Program-made: the position numbers and the translations under genes
Assembly: GCA_938085045.1 (NCBI GenBank)
Contig: CALKGI010000035.1
Coordinates: 1 to 64,000, forward strand
Origin: an uncultured Alteromonadaceae bacterium
Lineage (GTDB): Bacteria > Pseudomonadota > Gammaproteobacteria > Enterobacterales > Alteromonadaceae
Direction of reading: 5' to 3'
Length of the DNA: 64,000 nt
Notes under the pieces: model-generated
Database searches by the model: none
The model's input: the letters and a program-made list of their open reading frames with translations, nothing else
What the model was told of the DNA's origin: nothing
In this document: piece after piece, positions 5,450 through 40,112 of the stretch
How positions within the stretch are numbered: position 1 is the first letter of the stretch
Layout of the letters: each line of letters starts with the position of its first letter

Positions 5450-6476
5450 TGCATTCTCCGTGATTATAACTTTGGTAAATGGCTTCAATCGACGGCACCA
5501 ATGCAGCGGTTGAGTATTGATTACGTATTTTTTCACGTACATTGTGAGACAAGCTGGTTTTGTCACAGTCTGACAAGTCATACCATTGTGTTAACGCTTG
5601 TTTTAATTTGGCGATGTTGCCAGCCTCAACCAACCAGCCCAACGAAGGTTCGCTGATCAAGTCACCAATGCCACCCACTGCAAACGACACCACAGGGATG
5701 CCAAGCGCCATCGCTTCGAGTGCAACATAAGGCAAGCCCTCGTAACGAGATGAAATACAAAGTGCATCGACATCTTGCCAATGTTCTTGCATATTGACAT
5801 GCCCTTTAAAGCGCACCGTCTCACTGAATTCTTCGAGCAACCTAGTACGCTCGGGTCCATCACCATACACCACAAACTCTACCGGTTTGTCGCTGTGCCA
5901 ATCGGCTGCCATTTTACAAAACTGGTCGGGGCCTTTTTCTTTACTTAAACGGCCAACAAAGGCGACCCGTAACGGTTGCAGCGCATTGGTTTTAACTCTA
6001 GGCTCGGCAACATTAATAAAGTTGGGGATCATTTTGGTGCCCTTAGGCAACATCTCTTTTATTGGCTGGCTTACAGCAATGCGCTCACCAAGCGTTGCGG
6101 TAAATTGGTCAAGCCAAGTGTAAAATCTCAGTTTGCCAGTGCCTACATCACCACTGTGAAAAGTTGATAACACTGGAATTTTCATTGAACGGGCAAATAC
6201 TCTACCCATAATGCCAGCCTTGTAACCGTGGGTGTGCAGTATAATGCTGTGTCGATTACGCCATAATTGCTGCCAATAGCCTTTTACCGAATCGCAAAAA
6301 CGGTAGCCAATTTTATGCTCATCAAGAAATTGATATAAGAGGTTGCCTTGGTATTGTTTTATAAACCAAACTTCAACGTTATACCCTTCATCCGACAAAT
6401 GTGCCGCAAGCGTAAGTACGTGGGTTTCAATGCCCCCCATTTGGGAGCTATCCAATGTCAATATTATTTTTCGCAT
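5442..6476 (-). CDS. Glycosyltransferase family 4
   Basis: 344 residues. GT-B features: the N-terminal MGGIETHVLTLAAHL loop, VGRLSKEKGPDQF at the start of the donor-binding half, and SSRYEGLPYVALEAMALGIPVV with the E(x7)E donor-binding motif. It likely adds a sugar to a lipid-linked or surface glycan. The frame extends to 6572, but the family N-terminus (MRKIILTLDSSQMGGIETH) begins at 6476, so that start is used. It overlaps the GT2 gene downstream by 8 bp and is divergent from the flippase/polymerase pair. Confidence 0.9.
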   Translation of the reverse strand: MRKIILTLDSSQMGGIETHVLTLAAHLSDEGYNVEVWFIKQYQGNLLYQFLDEHKIGYRFCDSVKGYWQQLWRNRHSIILHTHGYKAGIMGRVFARSMKIPVLSTFHSGDVGTGKLRFYTWLDQFTATLGERIAVSQPIKEMLPKGTKMIPNFINVAEPRVKTNALQPLRVAFVGRLSKEKGPDQFCKMAADWHSDKPVEFVVYGDGPERTRLLEEFSETVRFKGHVNMQEHWQDVDALCISSRYEGLPYVALEAMALGIPVVSFAVGGIGDLISEPSLGWLVEAGNIAKLKQALTQWYDLSDCDKTSLSHNVREKIRNQYSTAALVPSIEAIYQSYNHGECNE

Positions 6477-6784: not shown

Positions 6785-8230
6785 ATGAAAATCCCCTTCA
6801 CCATTCACCCATCTATATACTTTGCGCTTGGCATTGTGATGATGAAGTCAGTTTCGTTACTGATGTTACCGATAGTTACCCGATACCTTGCACCTGCCGA
6901 ATTTGGTCGCCTTGAGTTGTTGTTGAGCATTGCAGACTTTGCTTCAATGTTGGCGGGTTTTGCGCTGGCCGATGCTTTGTATCGCTTTGCAGGTTTAAGT
7001 AAAAACGCTGACGAAGAAAAACATATTGGCAAAACCGTCTTTACCATGGCATCAATCATTGGATTAATGTGCCTAAGCACTGGGTTACTTTTGGTGCCTA
7101 TGGCTTTGCCGATGCTCGGCGAGGGGATCAGTTTGCTCGATTTGCAACTGGTGGTGTTTTTGTTTGCTGTCGACGGCTGTTTGGTGGTACCCCTGGCGTG
7201 GATGAAAATGAAAGAAAATGCCTTTACATTTTTTGTGCTCACCACAGGTAAAGCCATTTGTCAGGCGATTATTTCGTGGCAGCTGCTTAAAGCCGATTAC
7301 GGTATCACCGCTATGCTACTCGGTGGTGCGCTGTCATCGTTGTTGTTGGTGCTTATTCTCATAAAAATCCAAGTGAGTCAAACAGGGCTTGGCATAAACA
7401 CCAAATTGCTCAAGCAAATCTTGGTTTACTGTTCACCTTTGGTGATTAGTGCTTTGGCCGCCTTTGCTATGCTAAGTGCCGACCGCTGGGTGATTAACTT
7501 GGTTACAACCGCCGAAGCGCTGGGGCTTTATGCGGTGGCGAAAAAACTGGCGATGATCCTCATTATTTTGATGCAGCCTTTTGGGTTATGGTGGGCAGCC
7601 AGACGATTTAAAGAACTTAACAGCCCAGACGGCAAAGCTTCTGTCGCACGCTTCACCTCTTTGGGCATTGCGCTGGTGTTGTGTTTTTCGACCTGTGTTT
7701 GTATAGCCAGCCCGATTGTTATCGATTTACTGATTGACCCCAGTTATGCTGGTGCCATGGTATATCTTTGCCCATTGGTGTTGTTTTTTGCCATTAAGCA
7801 AATTGCCGAGCTGGCCAATCTTGGCTGCTTTGTCGGCAAAACCACTTGGAACGTCATGGCAATTGATTTAGTAACGGCAGCGGTGTCTATTATTGGTTTG
7901 TATTTTTTGAGTCAGCAGTGGCTAATCAATGGCGTTATCGCGGCATTGCTCATTGCTCAATGCGTGCGGTTTACGCTTTTTTACGTGGTCAGTCAGCGAA
8001 TGTTGTATTTACAGTACGCCAAAGGTAAGTTATTAATGCTGGCGGCGCTTTGCCTTTCGATAACATTTGTTTCTCTACAGCTCACTAATATGGGGCAACA
8101 TTTTGTGATGTCGATTGTTGGTGGATTGTTGATGGCTGCTTACTTACAAGTTAGTGAGCTATTTTCTTTTGTGCCCATACTCAAGCGAGGCTTGGCTATT
8201 ATTCGCCCTCCCCGGCTACTGTCAAAATGA
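6785..8230 (+). CDS. Wzx-type polysaccharide flippase
   Basis: 481 residues, highly hydrophobic with about 12-14 predicted membrane helices. The N-terminal block (MMKSVSLLMLPIVTRYLAPAEFGRLELLLS) is typical of the polysaccharide-synthesis/MOP flippase family, which moves lipid-linked oligosaccharides across the inner membrane. The stop overlaps the start of the next gene (ATGA at 8227-8230), so the two are translationally coupled. With the adjacent glycosyltransferases it forms a partial O-antigen or exopolysaccharide locus. Confidence 0.88.
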   Translation: MKIPFTIHPSIYFALGIVMMKSVSLLMLPIVTRYLAPAEFGRLELLLSIADFASMLAGFALADALYRFAGLSKNADEEKHIGKTVFTMASIIGLMCLSTGLLLVPMALPMLGEGISLLDLQLVVFLFAVDGCLVVPLAWMKMKENAFTFFVLTTGKAICQAIISWQLLKADYGITAMLLGGALSSLLLVLILIKIQVSQTGLGINTKLLKQILVYCSPLVISALAAFAMLSADRWVINLVTTAEALGLYAVAKKLAMILIILMQPFGLWWAARRFKELNSPDGKASVARFTSLGIALVLCFSTCVCIASPIVIDLLIDPSYAGAMVYLCPLVLFFAIKQIAELANLGCFVGKTTWNVMAIDLVTAAVSIIGLYFLSQQWLINGVIAALLIAQCVRFTLFYVVSQRMLYLQYAKGKLLMLAALCLSITFVSLQLTNMGQHFVMSIVGGLLMAAYLQVSELFSFVPILKRGLAIIRPPRLLSK

Positions 8231-12917: not shown

Positions 12918-13094
12918 ACGTTTTGTCAGTGAGATCCGTAAGATGCATAACCAGTTACCAAGCAACAGCAACAAACTGTCAGCAAGTTAACACAAAGCAA
13001 AGTCAAAATGGACGCTGTATCAAGAGGAAAGGGAAGAAGTATATAAGGAAATTCAGATACAAAGGAAAAGGGTCATAAGGAAGATGTAATCGCT

Positions 13095-13378
13095 AAAAAG
13101 GAAGTCGTATAACGGAAGATGTATCAGCTAAAAAGGAAGTCGTATAACGGAAGATGTATCAGCTAAAAAGGAAGACGTATAACGGAAGATGTATCAGCTA
13201 AAAAGGAAGTCATATAACGGAAGATGTATCAGCTAAAAAAGGAAGTCGTATAACGGAAGATGTATCAGCTAAAAAAGGAAGACGTATAACGGAAGATGTA
13301 TCAGCTAAAAAAGGAAGACGTATAACGGAAGATGTATCAGCTAGAAAAGGAAGACGTTTAACGGAAGGTGTATCAGCT
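13095..13378 (+). repeat. Eight tandem 35/36-bp units, each with two GGA motifs
   Basis: Units start at 13095, 13130, 13165, 13200 (35 bp each) and 13235, 13271, 13307, 13343 (36 bp each, with one extra A in the A-run). Each has an A5-6 run, GGAAG(T/A)CGTATA, ACGGAAGATG and TATCAGCT. Degenerate half-units flank the array on both sides (from 13079, and 13379-13410). Length variation lies only in the A-run, as expected of slippage and unequal crossing-over. Confidence 0.9.
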
Positions 13379-13622
13379 GAAAAAGGAAGTTGTTAGTACG
13401 GATGGGTGTATTGAAGGAAGTAATATCGAGGGAACTGGGCATTAAGGAAGGCTTTTCGGCAGGATCATTGAACATCGGCAATTGCTGATGACAGTGATGG
13501 CCATAAGGAACGATGCTACCGGGTAAGGGCCGTAGCATAGAGTATTCAGGAAATGGAGTGTGTAGTTACCATCCGGGAGCAAACGTTACGTTCGCTTCCG
13601 GATGTGTATAAGGAATAGGGAA

Positions 13623-13852: not shown

Positions 13853-13878
13853 CTTTTTTTAACAGGCTTTTCTTTAGA

Positions 13879-13943
13879 CCAAATCCACTAACTAACTGGT
13901 CATTTTGCTGGCTTAAATCAGAGCCGTGAATTCATGTCATTGG
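13879..13943. mobile_element. Short MITE-like element, internally deleted copy
   Basis: Starts CCAAATCCACTAAC and ends GTCATTGG. Its first 35 and last about 29 bases match the two ends of the longer element at 26301-26469 with only a few differences, while the roughly 100-bp centre is missing. It is non-coding. It is flanked by TA on the right side only. Confidence 0.7.
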
Positions 13944-13995
13944 TATTAAACGTATTGTGCCTTGGGCACCAATCGCTCGCTCCCACCATTGCCGC

Positions 13996-14082
13996 CCACC
14001 TTTTTCATAGGAATAACATGTGGCAGATCCACCTTTTTCATAGGAATAACATGTGACATATCCACCTTTTTCATAGGAATAA
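13996..14082 (+). repeat. Three 21-bp motifs at exact 33-bp period before a DUF4143 ATPase gene
   Basis: The 21-bp core (CCACC, T-run, CATAGGAATAA) begins at 13996, 14029 and 14062. The 12-bp spacers are partly conserved (CATGTGGCAGAT, CATGTGACATAT). The last core ends 65 bp before the ATPase ATG. The same core at the same period lies before the second DUF4143 gene (39993-40112), so this is a shared element, probably an operator or protein-binding array. The period is close to three helical turns, which would place all motifs on one DNA face. Confidence 0.85.
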
Positions 14083-14147
14083 GTTGTAAACACAACACTG
14101 TTTTGCTAATTTTAAGCAAGTGTTCACCCAAAAATACGATGGAAAAC

Positions 14148-15458
14148 ATGCAAAGACTGTTGTTGTCACAACTACTTGAATGGCAAGCTCAGGCTACCCG
14201 CAAGCCTGTTTTGCTCGATGGCGCTAGGCAAACAGGTAAGTCATATCTACTCAAAGAACTCTTTGGTAAACGCCATTTTACTCAGTGTCATGTCGTCGAC
14301 TTTTTAAAGCAACCTGATGCCGCGCAGTTATTTGAGCAAGACCTTGACCCGCATAGGATCATTAGCGATCTGGGATTTTTTCTTAAAAAAGACATTAACC
14401 CTACAACCGATTTGGTGATTTTTGACGAAATTGGTGAATGTCATAAAGCCGTTCAATCACTCAAGTATTTTGCCGAAGACCAACCAAATTGGTTTATTTG
14501 TAGCACGGGTTCTAACATTGGCCTGCTTAATGGTTTTCCGGTTGGCAAAGTGCATGGGCTGAGGTTGCGCCCAATGAACTTTGAGGAGTTTTTATGGGCC
14601 ACCGCCAACAAACAGCAACAAGCAGCCTTTGACCGGCAAGACAGGCGCACACTGGTACACAAACAACTGTGGCCATTGCTTTGTGACTACTTTTTTGTGG
14701 GTGGCATGCCTGAGGCGGTGTTTCGTTGGGTGGCCAGTAAAGATCAACCGTTGCTAACCCGTCATCAGCAGGTGCGGCATATTCAGCGTGATATTCTAAA
14801 TGGTTATGAGCGCGACTTTGGTAAATACTCAGGCCAGGTTAACGCCTTGTATATTGATCAAGTATTTAAAAACGTCAGCACTCAACTACAAAAAAATATG
14901 GATGGTTCGGTTAAGCGATTTGCTTTTAACAATATTATTGAAAAGAAAAAAACCTACCGTGACTTTGCCAGTATCATCGGCTGGCTTGAGTCCACCCTAT
15001 TGATATCAAAGTGTTATGTCATTAACCAAAAACCTCGATTGCCGTTAAAGTCAGGCCGTAAAGACAGCTTTTTCAAACTGTTTCACCTTGATGTGGGTTT
15101 GTTGTGCTGTGATTTGGCCATTAACATGTCGGCATTGAATATGGGAGACGTCATATATAAAGGCCCCATCTGCGAAAATTTTGTTCAAAACGAATTACTC
15201 AGCTACGGCCTCAATGAAACCTATAGTTGGTCTGAAAATACCGCCGAAATCGAGTTTATTGTTGAATCAAAAGGCACCATCACCCCAGTTGAAGTCAAAT
15301 CAGGCATAAACACCAAAGCCAAAAGCCTACAGTCATATAAACAAAGATATCATCCAGATAAAACATTGAAGCTGATTGGGGCCGTAGGCGGCACAGATGA
15401 AGCAGATCAAGTTTTTCCGCTTTATTATGCCAATATCTTGAAGCGCATTATCGAATAA
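14148..15458 (+). CDS. DUF4143-family AAA ATPase (COG1373-like), copy A
   Basis: 436 residues. The P-loop is LLDGARQTGKSYLL near residues 22-35 and Walker B is LVIFDEIGECHKA. The DUF4143 C-terminal half ends with a restriction-enzyme-like core (NTAEIEFIVES, then TPVEVKSG). The family is common in bacteria and archaea; its role is unknown, with DNA-related or toxin/defence-like roles suspected. The frame is open back to 13962, but that extension only translates the upstream repeats. The ATG at 14148 aligns exactly with the start of copy B (MQRLLLSQLLEWQ versus MKRALLDTLVQWK). The start at 14139 is an alternative. Confidence 0.88.
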   Translation: MQRLLLSQLLEWQAQATRKPVLLDGARQTGKSYLLKELFGKRHFTQCHVVDFLKQPDAAQLFEQDLDPHRIISDLGFFLKKDINPTTDLVIFDEIGECHKAVQSLKYFAEDQPNWFICSTGSNIGLLNGFPVGKVHGLRLRPMNFEEFLWATANKQQQAAFDRQDRRTLVHKQLWPLLCDYFFVGGMPEAVFRWVASKDQPLLTRHQQVRHIQRDILNGYERDFGKYSGQVNALYIDQVFKNVSTQLQKNMDGSVKRFAFNNIIEKKKTYRDFASIIGWLESTLLISKCYVINQKPRLPLKSGRKDSFFKLFHLDVGLLCCDLAINMSALNMGDVIYKGPICENFVQNELLSYGLNETYSWSENTAEIEFIVESKGTITPVEVKSGINTKAKSLQSYKQRYHPDKTLKLIGAVGGTDEADQVFPLYYANILKRIIE

Positions 15459-15710
15459 ATACCACTGTCGTCACAAAACATTAATGAACTCTACAAGCCA
15501 TTTATAGTCTACACTTTTGCAATAAGTGGTTATCACCTAACACTTAATTATAATAATGTTTAGTTAACGTACAATAAATTCCCAGTTAAGTTACATTTTT
15601 ATAACAAACAAGGTTGACAGTGTAATTGGATAGGCATAATATGACGCTCGTAAATTGAGCGAATGGCAAGAAACGCACATTACCTAGATATTCATTCAAT
15701 GAGGAATAAC

Positions 15711-26134: not shown

Positions 26135-26500
26135 GTCTTGTTGATCCTTTTTAAGTTATTTCGCCAATAACGCCATAACAATCTCTCTAGCCAGCTTAGG
26201 GCTGAATCCTTAAAATAAAACTACCGCGTATGTCGCCAATAATAACCGCTTAAAGCAATAACTCGTGTTTGCCCCTGTAGATGACTATATTGGTATAATA
26301 CCAAATCCATTAATTAACTGGTCATTTTGCTGGCTAAAATAAGCATTAGCTTCGTTATTAATCTTGCCATTAGAGTGACTAGTGGCGGCGGTTAATGCCT
26401 TGCTACTGCTTATTTTCCCAATTGGTCCGACACATCGGCAAAATCAGACCAGTGAATTAATGTCATTGGTATAACTCCCTGTATATTAAAGGCACAGACG
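26135..26500. other. Intergenic region mostly occupied by a MITE
   Basis: No gene. The left part (26135-26293) shows nothing recognisable; the right part is the palindromic element described separately. The start of the methyltransferase-like gene lies only 30 bp beyond the element, so its promoter may be within or displaced by the insertion. Confidence 0.5.
26301..26469. mobile_element. Palindromic MITE with TA/TATAA target duplication
   Basis: The ends are imperfect inverted repeats: CCAAATCCATTAATTAAC at the left versus GTGAATTAATGTCATTGG at the right. Internal AAAATAAGCA and TGCTTATTTT also pair, so the whole 169-bp element can fold back on itself. TATAA flanks it on both sides (26294-26298 and 26470-26474), consistent with a TA-type target duplication as in IS630/mariner elements. 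It has no coding capacity. A deleted relative lies at 13879-13943. Confidence 0.8.
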
Positions 26501-38576: not shown

Positions 38577-39926
38577 CTAAAAATATTCGTTTATATCCCA
38601 TGCCGTCAACAACGATTCGGCCGCATGGCAGGTGTAATAAAGCGCTCTGGTGTGCACTTGGTTTTCTCTTGAACCCCCAATTAAATCACACAATTTATAG
38701 GCCACTTTCGGCGCATAATTTTCGATATATAAATTCAGGCTTTTGGCTTTGGTGTGTTTTCCACTTTTTATTTCTATTGGAATGATATCGCCCAATGCAT
38801 TGGCGATCAAAAACTCCAACTCAGCCGTATTACCGCTTTGCCAAGCATACGTAGACGACACGCCCGCAGCCAAAAATTCGTTTTGAGCAAAATTCTCAGC
38901 CATATATCCTTTATAAGCGACCGACTGCCCAATAATTTGCGGATAAGCAAAACCCATCAGCGCATGTAATATACCCACATCAAGAATAAACAATTTAAAT
39001 CGGCTATCCTGCTCATTGGCGCCGAGCGGTGTTATCGGTTTTCCATCTATTATTTTCGCTTTACTGACCAGATGAGTGCTAACCAAATAATCTATCAAGG
39101 TTTGAAAATCTCGATAGCGGTTTTTGCCCTGAATAATTTGATTGAACTTAAACCGTTTTACGCTGGTATCTACCGACTGGCTCAATTGTTTGGGAATATT
39201 TCTGAAAACCGCTTCGAGTTGCGCTGCAAGAAATTTATTTTTGGCATCATATTTACCAAAGTCGCGGATATAACCGGTGATCAAATCATTTTGAATTTTT
39301 CTGACTTGCCGGGTTTTTTGGATGATGGGCGCAGGGCTTGTGAACCACTTTTTAACCACCGCAGGCATACCACCAACAAATAGATATTGGCGATACAGCT
39401 CTGTGAGTTTTTCGTGCACCACATCATTTCTGACTTGTTGTTCAAACGCTTTTGCCAACGGCCTATTGCCCGAGGCAAGCACGAATTCAAAAAATGACAT
39501 TGGGTGTAACGTCAGCTCATATGCCTGTCCTACCGGATAACGCTCAATCAAGCCAATATTCGAACCCGATGCGCACAAGTAAACATCAGGCCTTTGTTCT
39601 TTAAAGTATTTGAGGCTGTTTAGCGCCTCTGGGCATAAACCAATTTCATCGAAAAATAACAAATCAGTTGCTGGGTTAAAGTCTTTTGCGGCAAATACTG
39701 CAATACGCTCAAGTATTTCATCGGCTCTTATCGAATCTTTAAACAAATTCGCAGCGGCTATGGTGTCTTCAAAATTGATTTTAAACACTTTATCAAAATG
39801 ATTGGCACCAAACAGATGCTCAATTAAATAAGACTTACCCACCTGACGCGCACCATCAAGCATGATGGGTTGCCTGTCAGGCGAGGCTTTCCATTGAACT
39901 AAAGTGTCAAGTAGAGCTCGCTTCAT
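38577..39926 (-). CDS. DUF4143-family AAA ATPase, copy B
   Basis: 449 residues. P-loop MLDGARQVGKSYLI, Walker B DLLFFDEIGLCPEA and the DUF4143 C-terminus with NTAELEFLIAN followed by IPIEIKSG. It is clearly paralogous to copy A at 14148-15458 along its full length. The ATG has no strong binding site. Upstream (39993-40112) is a four-motif array of the same type as before copy A, ending 66 bp from the start codon. It probably acts in the cytoplasm on DNA or protein; the partner is unknown. Confidence 0.88.
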   Translation of the reverse strand: MKRALLDTLVQWKASPDRQPIMLDGARQVGKSYLIEHLFGANHFDKVFKINFEDTIAAANLFKDSIRADEILERIAVFAAKDFNPATDLLFFDEIGLCPEALNSLKYFKEQRPDVYLCASGSNIGLIERYPVGQAYELTLHPMSFFEFVLASGNRPLAKAFEQQVRNDVVHEKLTELYRQYLFVGGMPAVVKKWFTSPAPIIQKTRQVRKIQNDLITGYIRDFGKYDAKNKFLAAQLEAVFRNIPKQLSQSVDTSVKRFKFNQIIQGKNRYRDFQTLIDYLVSTHLVSKAKIIDGKPITPLGANEQDSRFKLFILDVGILHALMGFAYPQIIGQSVAYKGYMAENFAQNEFLAAGVSSTYAWQSGNTAELEFLIANALGDIIPIEIKSGKHTKAKSLNLYIENYAPKVAYKLCDLIGGSRENQVHTRALYYTCHAAESLLTAWDINEYF

Positions 39927-39992: not shown

Positions 39993-40112
39993 CCCACTTT
40001 TGGATAGGAATAATTCTTACAAAAACCCACTTTTGGATAGGAATAACCCTTGAAAAACCCCACTTTTTGACAGGAATAATTCTTACAAAAACCCACTTTT
40101 TGATAGGAATAA
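39993..40112 (+). repeat. Four 21-bp motifs at exact 33-bp period before the second DUF4143 gene
   Basis: The cores begin at 39993, 40026, 40059 and 40092 and read CCCACTTTT, G/T, GATAGGAATAA (third copy GACAGG). Three 12-bp spacers separate them; two are identical (TTCTTACAAAAA) and one is CCCTTGAAAAAC. Core and period match the array at 13996-14082. Relative to its gene the array is inverted: the ATPase reads leftward while the motif is oriented rightward. Confidence 0.88.

Follow-up and report, generated by a model that had tools for sequence, protein, structure and literature searches.

Two genes for ATPases of the DUF4143 family, lying in a 64,000-nucleotide stretch of contig CALKGI010000035.1 (the window) from an uncultured Alteromonadaceae bacterium, are each preceded by an array of short direct repeats with a period of 33 bp (arrays A and B; Table 1). 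Each array belongs to one ATPase gene and is positioned by its start codon, and arrays with motifs private to their own genes occur across phyla. On sequence comparison, the array is probably an operator with several sites, private to its ATPase gene and predicted to dock the gene's own product. The initial annotation of this DNA had described the array in front of gene A; the pattern was confirmed to be larger, with array B in the same window and further arrays across the source genome and across phyla.

The three copies of a 21-bp motif at an exact 33-bp period that had been reported ahead of gene A were borne out, with a Tandem Repeats Finder (TRF) score of 160 and a lag score of 51 against a maximum of 15 among 1000 dinucleotide shuffles. 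A tile scan of the 64 kb at lags of 16–60 gave high scores only for array A, array B and a 36-bp repeat, and the core pattern had seven matches in the window against 0.39 expected, all of them inside arrays A and B. Chance or low complexity as the origin of the arrays was ruled out by the shuffles and by control upstream regions. An array of clustered regularly interspaced short palindromic repeats (CRISPR) was ruled out on spacing: CRISPR spacers are unique and about 26–70 bp long, whereas the spacers here are 12 bp long and partly alike.

The source genome (5.89 Mb in 317 contigs, 81% complete) contained eight DUF4143 matches, and a significant upstream tandem array was found at seven of these, as had been anticipated for most such genes; the single gene without one was L001. 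The best lags of the seven arrays were 33 (four arrays), 32, 23 and 22. Motifs were unalike among these ATPases, with only A and B having a common one. Allowing up to three mismatches, the A/B core was found in the whole source genome at the seven array sites and at one site with three mismatches, and the reversed control also gave one. A genome-wide dispersed repeat was ruled out, as there were seven true A/B-motif sites in 5.9 Mb and the extra match was at control level. In the same-genus genome G001 the core was present at four sites before the relative of copy B and at one three-mismatch site, with no others. The expectation that core matches would co-locate with DUF4143 genes held for genes A and B, with the one extra site at chance level, but the core was not common to the other DUF4143 genes.

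The upstream regions of close relatives were then compared, using the best 80 of 543 from a scan of named genomes with a six-protein alignment. Periodicity was called at a z-score (z) of ≥3 against 40 shuffles, and L037 was dropped for want of an N-terminus, leaving 79 testable relatives. Periodic upstream regions were found in 71 of the 79, every one at a lag of 32 or 33, and 64 reached z ≥5. Among control neighbouring open reading frames (ORFs) of the same loci, 28 of 420 had z ≥3 at any lag; ten were at lag 32 or 33, at least six of which were the ATPase array viewed from a divergent neighbour. The figure of 71 is a low count, since L034, scored as array-less through a misplaced start codon, holds two canonical units, a single site is present in L097, and the A core occurs as an inverted pair in L022. 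Outside the genus, the L022 protein is the closest relative of A (64% identical), and the L022 locus retains TTCATAGGAATAAGTTGT as one arm of the inverted pair.

The commonest unit in the relatives was a 22-bp palindrome, CACTTTTATGCGCATAAAAGTG. Two or more units were present in 67 of 81 loci, and the 90 spacings between them were 32 bp (75), 33 bp (14) or 31 bp (1). Across 34 loci less than 85% identical, information content was 1.2–1.3 bits per base in the units, 0.39 in the spacer and 0.16 in the 45 bp downstream, the contrast being somewhat inflated because units were selected by similarity. Similar motifs turned up again in distant hosts.

Array A ends 56 bp before the start codon of gene A, which is best placed, from the alignment of relatives, at 14139. 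A longer ORF from a TTG at 13962 reads through array A, across which both strands are open, but it is probably not the gene, since relatives begin at the residue encoded at about 14139. The two open strands and a period that is a multiple of three (33 bp, or 11 codons) would fit repeats acting as RNA or as a leader peptide. This is very improbable. The core ATAGGAATAA has the same direction as gene A and is antisense to gene B, separated from the nearest array B unit by 66 bp, and this reversal points to recognition as double-stranded DNA rather than as RNA or peptide. Furthermore, a period of 32 outnumbers 33 in the relatives, 22–23 bp is usual in the sister clade, and no Rfam model was matched at its gathering score (one microRNA model gave E 0.09, far under its cut-off).

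Thirty-six whole genomes, all selected as ATPase carriers, were searched for the palindrome. At up to one mismatch, 71 sites were found in 35 of the 36 genomes, and the reversed control gave none. All 30 fetched loci with palindrome sites adjoined an ATPase P-loop. The extra arrays in G791, G774 and G784 each accompanied their own additional ATPase copy, the two copies in G784 being 4.7 kb apart, and the remaining arrays were those of L070, L076, L081, L089 and L101, already located in the relatives' set. No array without the ATPase was found in the 36 genomes searched, and the exact two-unit pattern occurred in one of 369 class-wide genomes, where it adjoined an ATPase. The presence of sites at ATPase copies only, in the source genome, G001 and these 36 genomes, makes a third host factor with a regulon unlikely. 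We infer the ATPase to be the binder of the array. A separate host DNA-binding protein in that role is an improbable alternative: it would suit the ATPase-free copies of the motif found on Vibrio megaplasmids and ahead of phage DNA polymerase genes, but not the lack of any site away from the ATPase in the 36 genomes, the several arrays of unrelated motif within one genome, each by its own ATPase, or the similar motifs in distant hosts.

The occurrences without the ATPase were on plasmids and phages. The array was present in 17 plasmid records; 13 of them held the ATPase as well, and four Vibrio records (~0.9 Mb) had no ATPase match. Three of these four megaplasmids were read, and each had two or three units with an exact 33-bp period among small genes (L159:3004, L160:2968 and L161:3001), before small genes of no assigned function. 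In viral contigs, the palindrome was present, as a raw count, in seven contigs of three apparent phage types. Two unrelated phage types had an intergenic palindrome followed at 33 bp by a second unit, full or partial (L148:2905–2948 and L147; L152:2449–2503), and the best named matches of the gene behind these sites were mostly annotated as DNA polymerase; the ATPase was not found in the fetched stretches of L147, L148 and L152. The third type had a single palindrome site within an ORF, Vibrio phage VnaP had one further single site, and no two-turn arrays were found in the viral contigs. Sites restricted to the gene of the presumed binder, as would be expected of an operator, were thus the rule in bacterial genomes, with exceptions on plasmids and phages. 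A more speculative reading, which we regard as quite unlikely, is that the ATPase-nuclease is a guard parked on DNA as an inactive phased oligomer, which invading DNA would release or derepress by competing for the array or clearing it; the ATPase-free arrays at the two phage DNA polymerase genes and on the Vibrio megaplasmids would then be decoys or sensed sequences.

For the wider family, 199 DUF4143 loci located by profile search were pooled, comprising eight from the source genome, 13 from relatives, 111 drawn phylum-wide, 62 taken from five distant genomes and five hits on plasmids of other phyla, with some weak or partial DUF4143 matches left out. Fourteen loci were dropped (four with a short upstream region, ten without a P-loop), leaving 185 testable. 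Five loci of the distant genomes (L227, L255, L256, L258 and L259) appear identical to L057, L045, L052, L054 and L094 of the relatives' set. An array at z ≥5 was found at 53 of the 185 loci, with a lag of 22–24, 32–33 or 46 in 47 of the 53. By set, these were seven of eight in the source genome, four of 13 relatives, 26 of 101 in the phylum-wide draw, 12 of 58 in the distant genomes and four of five plasmid hits. The plasmid arrays, on Collinsella, Segatella, Criblamydia and Fusobacterium plasmids, had periods of 32–33 bp and their own motifs, and the Parabacteroides plasmid was the one that failed the test. On a quick 227-protein tree, three changes between the two-turn and three-turn states were counted, and 23 between array presence and absence. 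The clade-specific periods of 22–24 and 32–33 bp support the earlier suggestion of helical phasing at about three turns.

Both proteins exceeded the curated Pfam cut-offs of 27 bits for PF13173 and 28.1 bits for PF13635, with 74.1 and 68.3 bits for A and 74.8 and 64.2 bits for B. The PADLOC PDC-S01 models were matched at E 1.9e-117 by A and E 7.6e-111 by B (390.7 and 369 bits with PDLC04786). PDC-S01 is a very common phage-defence candidate. A published account ranks it fourth by frequency among prokaryotic defences, portrays it as a fusion of an ATPase with a PD-(D/E)XK member and, in its available text, does not mention a cis-acting DNA array (PMC12988326). The DUF4143 ATPase is presumed to be antiviral.

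The AlphaFold model of ATPase A had a mean predicted local distance difference test (pLDDT) score of 91.6. The closest solved folds to residues 1–327 were the archaeal ATPases PABY2304 (Z 17.0) and SSO1545 (Z 15.3), followed by CED-4 and plant NLR proteins, and this part presumably includes a winged helix, as in the PABY2304 and SSO1545 structures. Residues 306–439 alone (134 residues) were closest to Can2 (Z 8.6), EcoRII (7.7), the McrC chain of McrBC (7.7) and VRR_NUC (7.4), so that the C-terminal domain is predicted from the model to have a restriction-endonuclease-like PD-(D/E)XK fold. Among 49 sequences, E346, E385 and K387 were invariant and E370 and E372 were kept in at least 90%, and the E-x-E ... 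P-x-E-x-K-S-G motif that includes four of these residues is the presumed PD-(D/E)XK active site. Foldseek with the C-terminal domain alone (model pLDDT 79.6) gave no match at E 0.001 or better, and a profile search against solved structures gave no solved relative of the ATPase at E below 0.7.

In the operator model, several copies of the ATPase would dock in a row along a single DNA face, with one site per three turns in the A/B clade and one per two turns in the sister clade. The docked protein would be an AAA+ ATPase with a presumed winged helix and a predicted PD-(D/E)XK nuclease domain. Docking on or beside the promoter would control expression of the gene itself, most likely holding it at a low level until the protein is removed by infection or DNA damage. 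Oligomerisation of the ATPase and autorepression as the outcome are what we infer, and a multimeric ATPase on the array, in line with the multimeric protein initially suggested, is consistent with the data. A private operator is the least strained reading given a motif for each ATPase, the lack of sites elsewhere in the searched bacterial genomes, the promoter position, the symmetry of the units and the clade-tied phasing.

Three observations weigh against this model. First, 123 of the 185 DUF4143 genes of the pooled set had no tandem array at z ≥3, which shows that not every member of the family has one. Of these 123 loci, however, 38 had a significant single inverted repeat that often finished within 20 bp of the start codon, compared with seven of 200 control upstream regions, and this speaks for the model. 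Secondly, a −10-like hexamer lay at no fixed distance from the last unit, offsets of 0–1 and about 10 being the commonest, and because this distance varies repression is not distinguishable from activation, which is possible. Finally, an operator alone leaves the sharp edge of transferred units at the array, described below, unexplained.

Plasmid iterons, too, are direct repeats of about 20 bp in regular phase, lying next to the gene for their presumed binder, and their repeat length and spacing are like those of the array. An origin of the array as replication iterons left by an integrated replicon is nevertheless extremely doubtful, as the gene in the unit is AAA_14/DUF4143 rather than a replication initiator, there is no replicon, and the array is found with one gene in many contexts. 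A precedent is RptR, the regulator of a defence locus whose promoter holds three direct repeats, each with a palindrome, to which RptR binds (PMC12255303). The likeness lies in the three promoter repeats, through which the RptR locus is repressed. RptR differs in its 9-bp repeats and homodimeric repressor, whereas here units of 21–22 bp recur every 32–33 or 22–24 bp and the protein is an ATPase with a nuclease fold. Regulators of the IniR/MalT type, like SSO1545 and PABY2304, resemble residues 1–327 in fold but belong to other families by sequence. Promoter binding and induction of transcription have been described for IniR, whose ATPase domain is like that of SSO1545, and private arrays are not reported for such regulators in the available text (PMC5760070). 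In a literature search without most subscription journals and bioRxiv, no report was found linking DUF4143, COG1373 or PDC-S01 proteins to such arrays, which agrees with the statement in the initial annotation that no described link was known.

A private, helically phased site beside the gene is a ready substrate for work on binding, stoichiometry, nucleotide dependence, cleavage and regulation, and subunit spacing has a natural test in the two-turn and three-turn clades. Arrays that lack the ATPase, on phages and megaplasmids, point to interaction with invaders. The pattern is widespread, with many genes of a suspected anti-virus family carrying their own evenly spaced array.

Array and gene clearly travel together. 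Near-identical array-plus-gene units occurred in differing neighbourhoods, and array A with gene A occupies a variable slot, both flanks of which are kept in G001 (identity stops at 13854 and resumes at 15473) with a different gene in between. Edges were compared in 235 pairs at least 85% identical, which share members and are not independent. At the left, 127 of the 235 pairs lost similarity 0–9 bp from the outer array edge. Right ends were clustered, with 41 pairs ending 0–9 bp and 73 ending 60–69 bp past the stop codon, the latter falling just past a hairpin, GGTCTACA...TGTAGACC. In one subclade (L079, ~7336–7380, and relatives), a hairpin GGTCTACACAAAGTTA...TAACAATTTGTAGACC past the ATPase stop codon formed the right edge of shared units.

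These edges would suit an array that serves a mobile unit as its end or as its target, recognised by the ATPase-nuclease in order to move or home the array-plus-gene segment. The exchanged slot, the paired copies in G784 and the Acinetobacter plasmids carrying proteins 97% identical to the Shewanella xiamenensis ATPase are also in keeping with this reading, which we consider unlikely but of some weight. A matching site within 400 bp past the stop codon was found in none of 78 relatives, and in broad loci in two of 26 against 1.4 expected; the clearest far-end case was L002, with an inverted copy of its own array motif, ATGCGAATTATACC, 13 bp past the stop codon. The paired end arrays of a Tn7-like transposon were thus not found in the 78 relatives, and the lack of a closing site at the far end gives no support to a transposon-like mechanism. 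In addition, a gene-free array was not found in the 36 genomes searched, a target duplication was not established, and edges of this kind would also arise in these non-independent pairs if flanks were exchanged by homologous recombination.

Table 1. Positions in the window of the arrays, the ATPase genes and associated features
Feature	Position	Strand	Description
Array A	13996..14082	+	three identical 21-bp units CCACCTTTTTCATAGGAATAA (13996-14016, 14029-14049, 14062-14082), 12-bp spacers, period exactly 33 bp
DUF4143 ATPase A	14139..15458	+	439 aa; PF13173 AAA_14 + PF13635 DUF4143; PADLOC PDC-S01
E-x-E ... P-x-E-x-K-S-G motif of ATPase A	15246..15299	+	conserved; E370, E372, P383, E385, K387
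Variable slot with array A and gene A	13855..15472	+	from comparison with same-genus genome G001
Array B	39993..40112	+	four 21-bp units (39993, 40026, 40059, 40092), period 33 bp, core ATAGGAATAA on + strand
DUF4143 ATPase B	38577..39926	−	449 aa; AAA_14 + DUF4143; PDC-S01

Several further repeats were observed. A dispersed element with ACCAA/TTGGT ends is present in the window at 13878–13956, where it adjoins array A, and at 26300–26472; parts of it occur at about a dozen places in G001, and it looks like a small miniature inverted-repeat transposable element (MITE). The 36-bp repeat of the tile scan, ATAACGGAAGATGTATCAGCTAAAAAGGAAGTCGT, has about nine copies at 13075–13390, is found in the same place in G001 and is unrelated to the 33-bp array. 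In L063, diverged direct repeats of about 110–120 bp (5697–5815 and 7333–7452) flank the ATPase unit, and their sequence is present once, uninterrupted, in L062 at 10320; they are possibly integrase attachment sites. Among the control ORFs of the relatives, short-period arrays were seen in L024 (~1122–1173) before a plus-strand ORF at 1181 and, in L073 and L062, upstream of minus-strand ORFs at 1767–2388 and 1089–2163, respectively. The genes behind these control arrays are unrelated to the ATPase and presumably include a Fic-like and a resolvase-like gene.
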